The notes under the pieces are model-generated. The model had not been told where the DNA came from and did no database searches. It saw only the letters and a program-made list of their open reading frames with translations. Positions 3,797-47,707 of a DNA stretch of 47,707 nucleotides are shown here, piece by piece; positions within the stretch are counted from its first letter, which is position 1; the number at the start of each line of letters is the position of its first letter. The position numbers and the translations under genes are program-made. The DNA comes from a virus. The DNA lies in the IMG/VR virus record IMGVR_UViG_3300020469_002906, positions 1 to 47,707 of that record, one strand, 5' to 3'.

Positions 3797-4490
3797 TATT
3801 TCTACCTTCTTCTTGATATAATCCCCTAGCAACATTAGGAAACTCTTTCTTGATTATTAACCAACATTTTTTTGCAATCTCCATGTGTTCTTTTTGTGTT
3901 CCATTTTCCATTCGCAAGTCACAGTAATGAATCCAGGATCTTAAAGTTCCTGACATATACATTTTACTCATCATAAGGCCTTCAGGTAAAATTGATCTAG
4001 CTTGTTCTTTTGCTACACCTTTTTCTATTAAATGCTCATAACTGTCTATTGCTAGTTCTTTAATTTGTTTTTGTCTTTGTTCAAAAATATATTGTAGATG
4101 TCTGTGATTTGCATTTGTTTCATCTAAATCAATACTATTCTGTCTGTTTTTTTCATCTTGTAATCTGGCTTCTCTAATGTTAGTAAATCCAAAAACAGCT
4201 GTTGGATCTGCATAACGCTGACTAAACTCTTGGAAAGAAAAAGACCTGTGTCTTAATATCTGCCTTCCAATATCTCTAGTAGTGTTTATTTCCATCACAA
4301 TATGCACCATCTCAAAAGGTGACCAATGTTTATTCTTGATTAAATATCTTATTAGTTTATCTGAGCTTTCAAAATTGTTTTGATTACTTGGATTTGATAC
4401 TCTTGCCATATAAACAATAGCATCTTCAGGACTTTTATCTTTCAATTCACCATAAAATGACGAAATGCCAATCAATTGGACATCTTTCAT
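3786..4490 (-). CDS. thyX: Flavin-dependent thymidylate synthase ThyX
   Basis: The 234-residue product carries the ThyX signature RHRSFSFQEFSQR at 80-92, preceded by the typical HWSPFE segment and followed by a C-terminal SWIHYCDLRMENGTQKE block. ThyX makes dTMP from dUMP using methylene-tetrahydrofolate as carbon donor and NADPH/FAD as reductant. It works as a homotetramer and regenerates tetrahydrofolate directly, so no dihydrofolate reductase is needed. It overlaps the primase stop by 4 bases and nrdA by 11 bases, so the two dNTP enzymes are translationally coupled. Length fits the family. The assignment is secure. Confidence 0.96.
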   Translation of the reverse strand: MKDVQLIGISSFYGELKDKSPEDAIVYMARVSNPSNQNNFESSDKLIRYLIKNKHWSPFEMVHIVMEINTTRDIGRQILRHRSFSFQEFSQRYADPTAVFGFTNIREARLQDEKNRQNSIDLDETNANHRHLQYIFEQRQKQIKELAIDSYEHLIEKGVAKEQARSILPEGLMMSKMYMSGTLRSWIHYCDLRMENGTQKEHMEIAKKCWLIIKKEFPNVARGLYQEEGRNNGN

Positions 4491-7649: not shown

Positions 7650-8484
7650 TATTCCTCTTCATATACATTATAAATGGCATCAATTTTTTCTTCTTTCTTT
7701 TTACTGGAACTCCTGGTTCACCATCAGGGCCAACACCAATACCGGCTACTTGACCTGATCCTGCACTTACTGTTGGTGCATCTTCATTTTTAGGAACACA
7801 ATTAGGAACTCTTCTGCCTTTTTTCATTTTGAAACCAACTTGTTTGTGTGAATCCCAACAAGCTTCCTTTTTAAGTGTTGGTTCTTTTTTTACTGGTTCT
7901 GGTTTTCTAGGTTTATTTAACGCAGCTCTAGTGGCGTCACCAAATTTATAACCTTTTCTTTTCACACCTCTTTGAAATTTTTTAAGTCTAGCTTTTGCTG
8001 TTCTTGCGGCCTTTTGTGTATGATAATCTGCCATGACACCTAAAGCCTCACCGGCAGAGGCACCAGGAGCATCTGAACCTATTTTAGAACCTAGATATTG
8101 ACCTGCAATACGACCTGCTGTTGATAAGACTTCATCTACTTTCTTTTCATCTTTTGCAAAAGCTGATTTTGTTTTAAATAAATTTTTTGGTAATCCAGAT
8201 CCAGGTTTCCTTACCACAACACCTCTACGACCTCTTGGTTTAACCATTAAAGAATAATCGGCTTCATCTATAAAATGACCACTCTTTGGTATTTTTACAT
8301 TTACTGTATCTGATGTTTTACCTTGACCTGCTTTTATAAGTGCTTTCATATATTTTGCACTATATGGTCTGCCAGCTTCTTTCAATGATTTTTTTTTACG
8401 ACCAGCACAATGAGCCTTTTGACTAAAGCCTTTGGGGTTGCTACAATCAATGCTTTTTTTGTACTTGTTCGACCATTTACTCAT
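7642..8484 (-). CDS. Basic Cys-motif phage protein (CSNPKGFSQKAHC / VPNCVP type)
   Basis: This 280-residue, strongly Lys-rich protein has two short cysteine modules that I know from many marine T4-like proteins of unknown role. One is DCSNPKGFSQKAHCAGRK near the N terminus (about 14-30); the other is ACWDSHKQVGFKMKKGRRVPNC near 205-230. Between them lies an Ala/Gly-rich helix that contains GRIAGQYLGSK. The modules often occur on late-expressed phage proteins with nearby repeat proteins, as here. The high positive charge fits contact with DNA or the capsid interior. Overlaps neighbours by 8 bases on both sides. No enzyme signature is seen. Confidence 0.7.
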   Translation of the reverse strand: MSKWSNKYKKSIDCSNPKGFSQKAHCAGRKKKSLKEAGRPYSAKYMKALIKAGQGKTSDTVNVKIPKSGHFIDEADYSLMVKPRGRRGVVVRKPGSGLPKNLFKTKSAFAKDEKKVDEVLSTAGRIAGQYLGSKIGSDAPGASAGEALGVMADYHTQKAARTAKARLKKFQRGVKRKGYKFGDATRAALNKPRKPEPVKKEPTLKKEACWDSHKQVGFKMKKGRRVPNCVPKNEDAPTVSAGSGQVAGIGVGPDGEPGVPVKRKKKKLMPFIMYMKRNNV

Positions 8485-44570: not shown

Positions 44571-44623
44571 ATCCTATCAGCACCAACCCCAATTGTCAAG
44601 CGATAATGTTGCATTTTTACAAC
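44571..44623 (-). promoter_or_regulatory. Sigma70-type promoter A with upstream dyad
   Basis: On the minus strand: TTGACA at 44599-44594, 17-base spacer, TAGGAT at 44576-44571, 38 bases before the CobS-like ATG. The dyad GTTGTAAAAATGCAAC occupies 44623-44608, 8 bases before the -35, and overlaps the last codons of the VWA gene. It shares with promoter B the strings CGCTTGACA and TAGGATGG followed by CATAGA. Confidence 0.85.
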
Positions 44624-46959
44624 TTTACCGCAATTTTTTCTACAAATTTCGTTGCCAATATACGATTGACCTCTCTAGATTTGTTCATTTTAGTGAATTG
44701 GCTTGCAAGGCTTCTGGTACTAATTTTGTTTTTATCAGCAACCTCAAACTCAAACTCTTCACCATCAGTAGTAAGCTTGTTACTATCATTTAAAATGTAA
44801 AACTGATCAAAGCCTCTATTATATGATTCTAAAAACTTTTGCTTTCTCGCAAGTTTTTTAGCCGCATCTTTTATTTCCCAAGTAGCATAAAAATTGGAAG
44901 CTTTGGTAACATTTTTAGGTACATATCTATAATTAATTGCATCACTCATTTTAGTTGAAACAAAAAAACCAAAAACTTGAGAATCAGTTTTAGCTTTGAG
45001 CCATTCTAGTAAATCGTTAGTCATACAATTATTTCTACTACTTGTAACAGCTGATGATGCCCAACGAATCTTAGTATCTTGTAAGATTGTATTTACATTG
45101 CGATCACAATATACAAATTTCCACTGGTTGTATTTTTCATCCCATGTATGATAACCACTATTATGATTAGAATCACCATCATGCACAAAAATAGTATTCA
45201 CAATATCTAAATTGTGTTTCTGTCTAAACTCTGGTACAATTGAACCTAAAGCAACGATAGATTCATTCAATGGTGTGCTACTTAAATGTAATGCCTGTGG
45301 AATATTCTGATAATTAACAGACATTTTGCTGTAGCTCCAAGAAGATTTACCCATGAGTAAATTTTCAAAAGCTTCTTTATAGGCAGCTGCACCCATATCT
45401 GAATTAATAAATTCTCTTAACGCCCAGTCATCATGAAGATCAAGAGTGTTCTCAGCCGTGTGCCATTTAGCAGTTGGATCAGTTTTATATCCATCTTTAT
45501 CATAATTTTGAACAAGCGGTGAAGAAGTGAAACCAAAAACTCTAAATGGTATTTGAACTTTCTTACAAAAAGCAGTAAGAATAAGAATCTGCTCAATTGA
45601 ACCAGCCATGTTACGATCCATAGAACCAGATAAATCTAATACAAGAATCATTCCGTGATTTTTACCTTTCGGTAATTTTGTCAACTTACGGAAAATTTGA
45701 TCGTCAAACTTATACTTGTAAATTTTGTTAACATCAATATCGCCAGAGGTATACAGTCTAGCCTTGGCATATTTTGTAGCAGCTTTTTTCATTTCAAAAT
45801 CTTTAGCCATCAATGAGATAAAACGATCATTTTTCTTTTTAAACTCATTCATAATATGACCACGATTGAAAAGTTTTTTAACTTCTTCACCACCAAGATT
45901 ACTTCTCCAGTTAGTCTGGTTTGAAAAGTAATAATCACTACGTTGTGATAACCCATTGTAGAAATCTGTCATATTTTTATTGACTAATTTAGTATCTTCT
46001 ATGATTCTATCTAATCTTGGCTTTGGTATATTAATATAAACATTTTCTAAACAGTTAACATCAAGTAATTGGTTCTCATTATTTCTAAATGACTCATCAG
46101 TTTCACAAGATGGTTCGTATACTTCATCACCATCAACATTACCATGAGCTGACTCAGCATCTACATTTGAGTCTTTTTTATCATCACCGCCATCTTCAGC
46201 AGTTGAATCATCAACATCAGATTCATTTTCTTCAGTATCTTCTTCTGTAACTTCAGATTCAGGTCCTGATTCTTCAGATTCATTTTCATTATCCGAATCA
46301 CCATTAGCGGAAAAACCAGTTTGATCAGATTCACCAAGTGAATCTTCATCACCATCTTCTTCTATATCTGTATAATCAAACATAGTAACAGTTTCTTTTT
46401 CTTCTTCTACTGCCTGATCCCATAATCTATCAGTCATAGCAACAACATCATCCCATGATTCAAGATTTTTAATCTCTTCAATGATTGACAACTCTTCATT
46501 AGAGAATTGAATAGGCATAGAGTAAGAGCTCTTTGTAAAAACATTAACTCTATCAATAAAAGGGCATTTATTTATTTCTTCAACATCTTGAATACCAAAT
46601 AGATTCATACCCATAATCTCATTAAAACCTTTAACATAAGATTTTACAAGACCTGGATATTTTCTTTTGATTTTTTTCTCAATGCGAGCATCTTCAATAA
46701 CATTAAGAAAACCTTTGTAGTTTTTGCCTTTATTAGATCCAGCGCCATGCCAGCCATCTGCTGGAGTATTTAAAGCATGGCCAACTTCATGACTCATTAA
46801 TAAATCATAGAGCTCTGGACTCATATCTTTCCAGATAGGGCAAGTAAGGACTCTTGTTGTAGGATTGAAAGATGCTGTATCAACTTTTTTATGTTGTACA
46901 GTAACATTTTCAGTAGCAAGTAATTTTGCTAGTTGTGTTTTTTGTTCTACTATTGACAT
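44617..46959 (-). CDS. VWA-domain protein with HExxH-like metallopeptidase site (CobT-like)
   Basis: 780 residues from ATG at 46959 (GGAG site; TTG 12 bases upstream rejected). The N-terminal part has SHEVGHALNTP (about 63-73), a His-Glu-x-x-His zinc motif in a gluzincin-like setting. Then comes a very acidic linker (about 195-290, Glu/Asp runs). The C-terminal VWA domain has the MIDAS start ILVLDLSGSMDRN (Asp-x-Ser-x-Ser), a FVHDGDSNHN loop and downstream Thr/Asp residues. The layout resembles CobT of aerobic cobaltochelatase and BatA-like partners of MoxR proteins. Likely works with the adjacent AAA protein as a remodelling or protease machine; metal insertion is unproven. Confidence 0.87.
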   Translation of the reverse strand: MSIVEQKTQLAKLLATENVTVQHKKVDTASFNPTTRVLTCPIWKDMSPELYDLLMSHEVGHALNTPADGWHGAGSNKGKNYKGFLNVIEDARIEKKIKRKYPGLVKSYVKGFNEIMGMNLFGIQDVEEINKCPFIDRVNVFTKSSYSMPIQFSNEELSIIEEIKNLESWDDVVAMTDRLWDQAVEEEKETVTMFDYTDIEEDGDEDSLGESDQTGFSANGDSDNENESEESGPESEVTEEDTEENESDVDDSTAEDGGDDKKDSNVDAESAHGNVDGDEVYEPSCETDESFRNNENQLLDVNCLENVYINIPKPRLDRIIEDTKLVNKNMTDFYNGLSQRSDYYFSNQTNWRSNLGGEEVKKLFNRGHIMNEFKKKNDRFISLMAKDFEMKKAATKYAKARLYTSGDIDVNKIYKYKFDDQIFRKLTKLPKGKNHGMILVLDLSGSMDRNMAGSIEQILILTAFCKKVQIPFRVFGFTSSPLVQNYDKDGYKTDPTAKWHTAENTLDLHDDWALREFINSDMGAAAYKEAFENLLMGKSSWSYSKMSVNYQNIPQALHLSSTPLNESIVALGSIVPEFRQKHNLDIVNTIFVHDGDSNHNSGYHTWDEKYNQWKFVYCDRNVNTILQDTKIRWASSAVTSSRNNCMTNDLLEWLKAKTDSQVFGFFVSTKMSDAINYRYVPKNVTKASNFYATWEIKDAAKKLARKQKFLESYNRGFDQFYILNDSNKLTTDGEEFEFEVADKNKISTRSLASQFTKMNKSREVNRILATKFVEKIAVKL

Positions 46960-46991: not shown

Positions 46992-47047
46992 ATCCTATAG
47001 GTACCATCTCTAAATGTCAAGCGTTAATTTTGTTGTATTTTTGCAAC
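46992..47047 (-). promoter_or_regulatory. Sigma70-type promoter B with upstream dyad
   Basis: On the minus strand: TTGACA at 47020-47015, 17-base spacer, TAGGAT at 46997-46992, 33 bases before the VWA gene ATG. Upstream (47047-47032) lies GTTGCAAAAATACAAC, a 16-base imperfect dyad, 11 bases before the -35. Nearly identical in plan and much of its sequence to promoter A at 44571. Confidence 0.85.
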
Positions 47048-47049
47048 AA

Positions 47050-47115
47050 TGGAGCGGTGTCGTGGAGTTACACCACGCTTACAGGTTGGAGCCTGATTGT
47101 CCTACGACCCACCGC
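47050..47115 (-). ncRNA. GC-rich cloverleaf-like RNA candidate (tRNA-like)
   Basis: A strikingly GC-rich 66-base island between the edge gene and promoter B. On the minus strand, a closing stem GCGGTG (47115-47110) pairs with CACCGC (47059-47054), enclosing three hairpins: GTC-GTAG-GAC (47108-47099), CAGG-CTCCAA-CCTG (47095-47082) and CGTGG-TGTAACT-CCACG (47077-47061). The last has the 5-bp stem and 7-base loop of a T arm, adjoins a 7-base acceptor half (6 of 7 paired), and is followed by T-CCA. This is tRNA-like geometry with a stunted D arm. But the T loop lacks TTC, and the middle arm does not give a 7-base anticodon loop, so it is not an ordinary tRNA. Strand is assumed from gene direction and the CCA end. 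Confidence 0.55.
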
Positions 47116-47140
47116 ATATTCTGTAAATACTATAACACAG

Positions 47141-47707
47141 CTATCTGCCAATTTGGGGCAAATATGAATCTTTTACCTCATTCCATGATTTATATATTAA
47201 ATCATCATAAAATAAACTTTCTTTAGATTCTCTACCTTTTTTGACCAATTGTTTGATTCTAGGTTTTGCATACTTGTATTTCCATAATTCAGACAAAGCT
47301 TCGGTAGAATTATCAAATGACTTTGTTAAATCTTCTATCTTGGCTTCGCCTCTCAAGTATGCACAGCTTTTATCATATAAGGGGCAAAAGTAAACGCCTC
47401 TTGCGTGATCAGATTTCATAATTTCTTTTGGTATATTACCTAGTTTACTATATGTAAAAGCATACGATCTATGCCTATGATCTCTTTTTAATTGTTGACC
47501 ATTTGGTCTTTTGGCAACATACCATTCAAAATATTTTCGTGGGTGGTTTTTCATCAACCAATGTCTAATTTGATATATTGTTTTCTTTGTTGGTTCGTAT
47601 GAAACAGAACCACTTGTAAAGCCCATTGGCTTCCAATATTTTAGATTATCATATTGTGATAGACCACCTTTTTTTGTTTTACCATAAAGTGATGTTGTTG
47701 TTACACT
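47141..47707 (-). CDS. DUF4338-like phage protein, C-terminal part (5' end beyond window)
   Basis: The frame is open to the window edge; 188 codons are visible and the start is missing. It begins ...TTTSLYGKTKKGGLSQYD, then LKYWKPMGFTSGSVSYEPTK, which matches the TTSLYGSSKSSSQYD region of the 372-residue protein encoded at 25248. A later block SDHARGVYFCPLYDKSCAYLRG follows, and the chain ends QIGR. The two are paralogs within one phage. Function unknown. It is followed by the structured RNA candidate and promoter for the VWA gene. Confidence 0.7.
   Translation of the reverse strand, partial: SVTTTSLYGKTKKGGLSQYDNLKYWKPMGFTSGSVSYEPTKKTIYQIRHWLMKNHPRKYFEWYVAKRPNGQQLKRDHRHRSYAFTYSKLGNIPKEIMKSDHARGVYFCPLYDKSCAYLRGEAKIEDLTKSFDNSTEALSELWKYKYAKPRIKQLVKKGRESKESLFYDDLIYKSWNEVKDSYLPQIGR

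Follow-up and report, generated by a model that had tools for sequence, protein, structure and literature searches.

What is the small, GC-rich, tRNA-like element that lies between two genes near the end of this stretch of viral DNA, and which process does it serve? The first-pass annotation of the stretch analysed here (47,707 nt; hereafter, the window) had described a 66-base island in AT-rich DNA that folds into a closed three-armed structure with a reduced D arm, a non-canonical T loop and a TCCA end. It had left three origins open (a degraded tRNA, a tRNA mimic or a new small RNA class) and had named Rfam searches and covariation in relatives as checks.

A reduced tRNA-Gly-like RNA and its relatives

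Our analysis bore out this description in every structural detail and placed the RNA on the minus strand, from position 47115 down to 47050, with a length of 66 nt including an encoded CCA (Table 1). Its GC content is 59%, against approximately 33% across the whole window. The sequence, GCGGUGG-GUC-GUAG-GAC-AAU-CAGG-CUCCAA-CCUG-UAAG-CGUGG-UGUAACU-CCACG-A-CACCGC-U-CCA, forms a cloverleaf that is the minimum-energy structure of the exact 66 nt (-24.1 kcal/mol); it has an acceptor stem of 6 pairs with a G7/A66 mismatch, an anticodon arm of 4 pairs, and a T arm of 5 pairs followed by U-CCA. An alternative fold (z -2.2) was obtained when the RNA was folded together with its flanks, the difference arising from the inclusion of the flanking bases. 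ARAGORN found no tRNA in the window, and the Rfam search matched no known family at gathering scores and gave no tRNA match (RF00005) at a permissive threshold.

Table 1. Features of the window and related RNAs in other phages
Feature	Coordinates	Strand	Basis or remark
C-terminal part of DruA-family (PF14236) gene; 5' end beyond the window	47141..47707	-	RNA lies 25 nt past its stop codon
tRNA-Gly-like RNA, 66 nt	47050..47115	-	model R1 match, 90.8 bits; minimum-energy cloverleaf; covariation
Acceptor stem, 5' strand GCGGUGG (G1, C2, G3 = glycine identity pairs)	47109..47115	-	invariant pairs in 58/58; identity set PMC9976931
Reduced D arm GUC-GUAG-GAC, 3 pairs, 4-nt loop without GG	47099..47108	-	3/3 pairs covary, 98% paired
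Anticodon-like arm CAGG-CUCCAA-CCUG, 6-nt loop with CC	47082..47095	-	5/5 helix pairs covary; CC in 58/58 loops
T arm CGUGG-UGUAACU-CCACG, G at position 55	47061..47077	-	4/5 pairs covary
Acceptor 3' strand CACCGC + discriminator U73 + CCA	47050..47059	-	UCCA in 58/58
Weak hairpin TGTTG-N8-CAACA directly 3' of the RNA; perhaps a terminator or 3' end	47031..47048	-	position conserved
Sigma70-like promoter of the VWA gene, TTGACA-17-TAGGAT (10/12)	46992..47020	-
VWA-domain "peptidase"/CobT-like gene after the RNA	44617..46959	-	PHROG 459
Non-canonical tRNA-Gly	HTVC008M 91140-91213; Mosig EXVC030M 7779-7852		broad RNA model, E about 1e-3
Tandem second tRNA-Gly-like RNA, different sequence type	L036:5936-6004; L037:482-550; L073:11410-11478; L104:4567-4708; L087:5658-5797

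Several other readings of the element were tried and rejected. The plus strand as coding strand was ruled out by the CCA, by the orientation kept with both neighbours, and by the relatives. A tRNA-Trp reading, suggested by the loop C-C-A, was discarded because G1-C72, C2-G71, U73 and the conserved CC fit tRNA-Gly and not tRNA-Trp (G73). Pairing of AACUCC in the T arm with the ribosome-binding site of the VWA gene was not kept in two relatives (L008 and L010). The low-threshold Rfam matches (snoRNA and miRNA families) fell in AT-rich flanks or coding sequence and were attributed to chance.

Relatives of the RNA with the cloverleaf kept were found in more than 100 viral contigs, and the RNA occupied the same site in contigs whose VWA genes are closely related to that of the window. 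In a plain MAFFT alignment of 12 distinct close relatives, 5 pairs had changed on both sides and 21 cells were double-changed, a cell count reached in 0 of 500 shuffles. To enlarge the set, the contigs of the upstream protein were searched with an RNA model, which yielded 65 RNAs, 58 of them distinct. Among these, 92.8% of cells were paired, a value that fell to 40-54% when the partner was slid by 1-3 columns. Both sides had changed in 16 of the 20 pairs, with 260 such cells in total (0/500 shuffles). These figures lean towards the model because the alignment was fitted to it. The degraded-tRNA option is not supported, since compensatory changes maintain the fold and even very divergent phages keep the glycine-identity bases without exception; the options of a tRNA mimic and a new small RNA class are supported, in keeping with a widespread conserved family that matches neither ARAGORN nor Rfam.

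A second clade carried a more divergent version of the RNA, and in most of its members a second, different tRNA-Gly-like RNA came 2-3 nt later (2-6 nt apart in the contigs of Table 1), which the model built from the first RNA detected with E values of 1e-6 to 6e-5. In this tandem copy, position 33 was often G and the loop often of the UCC type. Each large contig contained one RNA or one tandem pair. The tandem copy, the glycine identity and the link to an upstream DruA gene had not figured in the first-pass annotation.

The published bacterial glycine identity set consists of U73, G1-C72, C2-G71, G3-C70, C35 and C36 (PMC9976931 Table 1), and a second source pairs U73 with the bacterial alpha2beta2 type of glycyl-tRNA synthetase (GlyRS) (PMC3990555). 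G1-C72, C2-G71, G3-C70, U73, the CC of the anticodon loop and the encoded CCA were present in all 58 distinct RNAs, the C35/C36 numbering being uncertain where the anticodon loop is shortened. Acceptor pairs 5-7 varied, while the identity pairs of the same stem were invariant.

The features used in decoding behaved differently. By a best-hairpin count, the anticodon loop was 4 nt long in 22 of the 58 RNAs (mostly CCCC or CCCA) and 5-6 nt long in most others. A 7-nt loop with U33 was absent from the window RNA (CUCCAA, 6 nt) and from most relatives, and U33 was not kept in the family. A minority of members allow a glycine anticodon to be drawn in a loop of 7 nt (UCC in the tandem copy, CCC in L036), so these RNAs seem to grade from nearly tRNA-like to minimal forms. 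The D-loop GG was absent across the relatives, whose D loops were 3-5 nt long with one longer exception (e.g., CGA, GUAG, AUAG), and the constant T-loop UUC (54-56) was not kept (e.g., UUUAACU, UGCAAAU, UGUAACU). ARAGORN and RF00005 missed the RNA. The simplest reading of these sequences is selection for glycine charging, not for decoding. It is almost certain that the RNA is real and derived from tRNA-Gly, and judging from its sequence it is probably charged with glycine and non-decoding.

Linkage to a DruA-family gene

The gene upstream of the RNA is truncated by the end of the window; a full-length near relative (L004:3527-4825) matched the DruA family, PF14236, with an E value of 1.4e-16, and two full-length relatives scored 60.9 and 74.7 bits against a gathering cut-off of 27. 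Linkage was counted from both sides. From the protein side, 70 of 80 viral contigs fetched by the protein had the RNA on the same strand, approximately 8-1350 nt past the stop codon. Of the ten contigs without it, six ended at the gene and one (L117) ended 190 nt later, inside a stretch resembling the insert of L105 and L142; the remaining three (L137, L138 and L141) had the DruA gene and downstream sequence, in which the RNA was not found. Thus, 70 of 73 informative DruA contigs carried the RNA. In 0.92 Mb of sequence the RNA pattern matched 81 times, always downstream of DruA, whereas Markov shuffles gave 0-1. From the RNA side, a pattern scan of IMG/VR returned 105 new loci, and DruA was upstream in all 98 that had at least 300 nt of upstream sequence; the linkage counts are not fully independent, since some contigs recur under different locus identifiers.

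The gene order itself is a confound. In the main clade, all 41 relatives had a VWA gene within 1 kb past the RNA, and adjacency alone cannot name the partner of the RNA because DruA, RNA, VWA and AAA form one syntenic block. In the window, the DruA gene, the RNA and the VWA gene all lie on the minus strand, and the VWA gene starts approximately 90 nt past the RNA. The promoter that the first-pass annotation had placed between them was recovered there (Table 1), and an independent transcript of the RNA, which that annotation had also considered, is plausible. One to several TGTTG..CAACA-type hairpins, differing in number between phages, were seen 3' of the RNA in L036, L027 and L037; they could be 3' end signals or operators.

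Other genomic contexts bear on the choice of partner. DruA and the RNA can be separated by endonuclease-like inserts or by another gene while the VWA gene stays close (L105, L119, L142 and L133). In two isolates with DruA, HTVC008M and Mosig EXVC030M, a non-canonical tRNA-Gly lies several kilobases downstream on the same strand, and no RNA of the window type adjoins VWA. In two phage-like contigs from metagenome-assembled genome (MAG) bins, a canonical tRNA-Gly lay 13 nt before DruA (L339) and a reduced tRNA-Gly-like RNA lay approximately 550 nt after it, with a TTGACA/TATTAT promoter just upstream (L340); neither contig had a VWA or AAA match. P-SSM2, which has VWA and no detected DruA, matched neither RNA model. 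The observations on HTVC008M and Mosig, on L339 and L340, and on P-SSM2 favour DruA as the partner, and we consider it somewhat more probable than the alternatives combined that DruA is the user of the glycine on the RNA. Among complete cyanophage isolates with a divergent DruA, only 3 of 9 had an RNA-model match, to a canonical-looking or weakly matching tRNA-Gly, and six DruA-negative cyanophage isolates had none; co-occurrence in these isolates is uninformative to negative. Metagenomic contigs with cyanophage-type DruA carried a non-canonical tRNA-Gly in 9 cases.

Some further observations were made in these contigs. Judged by eye, an antisense, homing-endonuclease-like stretch appears to have been inserted downstream of DruA in L105, L119, L142 and L117. 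Upstream of VWA in HTVC008M and Mosig (L021 and L022, approximately 4085-4215), a shared hairpin motif, GTGCGA..TGACGCA, occupies the place of the RNA in the window. L339 and L340 are binned as Thaumarchaeota and Flavobacteriales genomes, which are probably binning errors. Tandem DruA-family genes were seen in contigs binned as a Thermoplasmata MAG (L334:2280-4705 and L335:927-3475), and a tRNA-Gly-like RNA with a GCC-type loop was seen in the same bin (L350:1501-1570). DruA loci in the genome contigs were rejected as cellular cases; they appear often to be misbinned phage contigs, and no clear cellular RNA partner was found among them.

Proposed role of the RNA and competing explanations

An AlphaFold2 model of the DruA protein, built with 57 homologues, had a pLDDT of 85.8 and a pTM of 0.81. 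In a Foldseek search of the PDB, the best matches were dominated by GNAT acetyltransferases (E from 4e-3; target TM up to 0.54), and none fell below E 1e-3. Among predicted viral structures, Mom of Salmonella phage FSL SP-031 was matched with an E value of 9e-4, a probability of 1.00 and a target TM of 0.55; the other significant viral matches were mostly uncharacterised proteins, and a large phage protein named amidoligase ranked above Mom with a target TM of 0.15. The TM-scores were modest (0.4-0.55, target-normalised). A cyanophage DruA homologue had been labelled "methylcarbamoylase mom" by its depositors. The DruA-family protein is thus predicted to have a GNAT fold similar to that of Mom.

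On the basis of sequence, the structural model and analogy, we propose with a probability of roughly 45% that the RNA is a dedicated, non-decoding tRNA-Gly mimic that is charged by the host and donates glycine to the adjacent DruA GNAT, with DNA as the most likely acceptor. The host GlyRS would charge the CCA end with glycine, as the complete identity set suggests. The charged RNA would be kept out of translation, away from EF-Tu and the ribosome, as suggested by its reduced or altered anticodon, D and T loops. The adjacent GNAT-fold enzyme would then take the glycine and pass it to an acceptor. Phage DNA is the most likely one if Mom of phage Mu is taken as a guide, since that enzyme places a glycine-derived group on adenine N6. 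Taken singly, DNA as the target is less likely than not. Similarly doubtful is the full picture, hypermodification of phage DNA by a system of two parts: a minimal, host-charged, non-decoding tRNA-Gly would be the dedicated donor of glycine to a GNAT of the Mom/DruA type, which would write a glycine-derived base into the DNA. Mom makes a glycinamide linked by the alpha carbon of glycine and not a simple glycyl amide; a DNA-target model therefore needs a rearrangement or other chemistry, and one may speculate that a glycyl group on N6 reaches the Mom-type product by rearrangement.

In one alternative, the glycylated RNA would serve a GNAT that moves glycine to an acceptor other than DNA (a protein, a lipid, a small molecule or a host tRNA), or DruA would act on the charged RNA itself. 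The structural prediction covers the fold of DruA and not its substrate, and GNAT-fold aminoacyl-tRNA-dependent transferases exist, such as the Fem and leucyl/phenylalanyl transferases, which counts in favour of this explanation. However, the DNA-modifying Mom is among the significant viral fold matches, and the DruA genes sit among DNA replication and recombination genes; we regard this alternative as unlikely. A role independent of DruA, in which a glycylated decoy or synthetase trap titrates the host GlyRS or glycine, or soaks up a host enzyme that attacks tRNA-Gly, such as an anticodon nuclease or a GNAT toxin, would draw on the same identity features and on the presence of one copy or tandem pair per large contig; moreover, TacT, a GNAT toxin that acetylates Gly-tRNA, reads U73 and G71 of tRNA-Gly (PMC9976931). 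A decoy would leave the adjacency to DruA in different gene contexts unexplained, and a single short gene would titrate poorly unless its expression were high; we consider this explanation improbable.

A working phage tRNA-Gly that supplements the decoding of glycine codons, its shape being unusual like that of some mitochondrial tRNAs, would account for the encoded CCA, the glycine identity, the 7-nt loop of a minority and the canonical tRNA-Gly of L339. It is very improbable in view of the 6-nt loop in the window, the 4-nt loops elsewhere, the loss of U33, the D-loop GG and the constant T loop, and the failure of ARAGORN and Rfam to detect it. Least credible of all is a cis-acting role, either in the VWA mRNA, as a leader, attenuator or processing element, or in the DruA mRNA, as a signal for 3' processing. 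Such a role would fit the main clade, where the RNA always lies between the two genes. It would not fit the VWA promoter downstream of the RNA, the RNAs that do not adjoin VWA (HTVC008M, Mosig, L339 and L340) or the tandem copies, and it would need neither CCA nor glycine identity.

Relation to known systems and significance

The RNA shares with bacterial tRNA-Gly the cloverleaf, G1-C72, C2-G71, G3-C70, U73, CC at anticodon positions and CCA; however, it is only 63-70 nt long, with a D arm of 3 pairs and a 3-5-nt loop, no linker bases 8-9, an anticodon loop mostly of 4-6 nt, and a T loop without the constant U54-U55-C56. Plant-virus tRNA-like structures likewise combine tRNA mimicry with aminoacylation features, but they form the 3' end of genomic RNA, whereas the phage RNA is a separate small gene in a DNA phage. 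Bacterial cell-wall synthesis offers a precedent for a tRNA-Gly diverted from translation: in staphylococci, non-proteinogenic tRNA-Gly species are the glycine donors for peptidoglycan. These keep glycine identity, have weakened decoding and EF-Tu features, and apparently supply glycine to a dedicated transferase, as we propose for the phage RNA, which differs in being smaller and phage-borne and in having as its neighbour a DruA/Mom-like GNAT instead of Fem, with no cell-wall genes nearby.

To our knowledge, no dedicated RNA for Mom is known. Mom of phage Mu and its relatives resemble the DruA-family proteins in their predicted GNAT fold and phage DNA context, but the DruA-family proteins are twice as long, and Mom has been described as moving an acyl group, for example from an acyl-CoA donor such as glycyl-CoA, onto adenine N6 (PMC7824862). 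The phage gene matches PF14236 above the curated cut-off, as do DruA of Druantia and DUF4338 proteins; in contrast to Druantia DruA, it has a tRNA-Gly-like RNA beside it and lies outside a Druantia operon, no DruE helicase or other dru genes being found around it; it is surrounded by VWA and AAA genes and by genes for phage replication.

In the open-access literature that we searched, we found nothing relevant on pelagiphage tRNA-Gly, on GlyRS-linked phage tRNA-like RNA or on glycyl-tRNA-dependent DNA modification. A phage family of such strongly reduced RNAs, coupled to a GNAT of the DruA/Mom-like kind, appears to be new. Standard annotation misses the RNA; in one isolate, Mosig, an annotated 31-residue hypothetical protein (Mosig_000011, MT647606.1 7774-7869), probably spurious, overlies it. 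These results describe a family of tiny tRNA mimics that is absent from Rfam and common in aquatic T4-like phages, built on a strongly reduced glycine-identity scaffold. If the proposed role is correct, these phages would divert charged amino acids from protein synthesis to a dedicated enzyme, and DNA modification may be aminoacyl-tRNA-dependent. The proposal makes testable the glycine source of Mom-type enzymes and the role of the DruA protein in Druantia defence.
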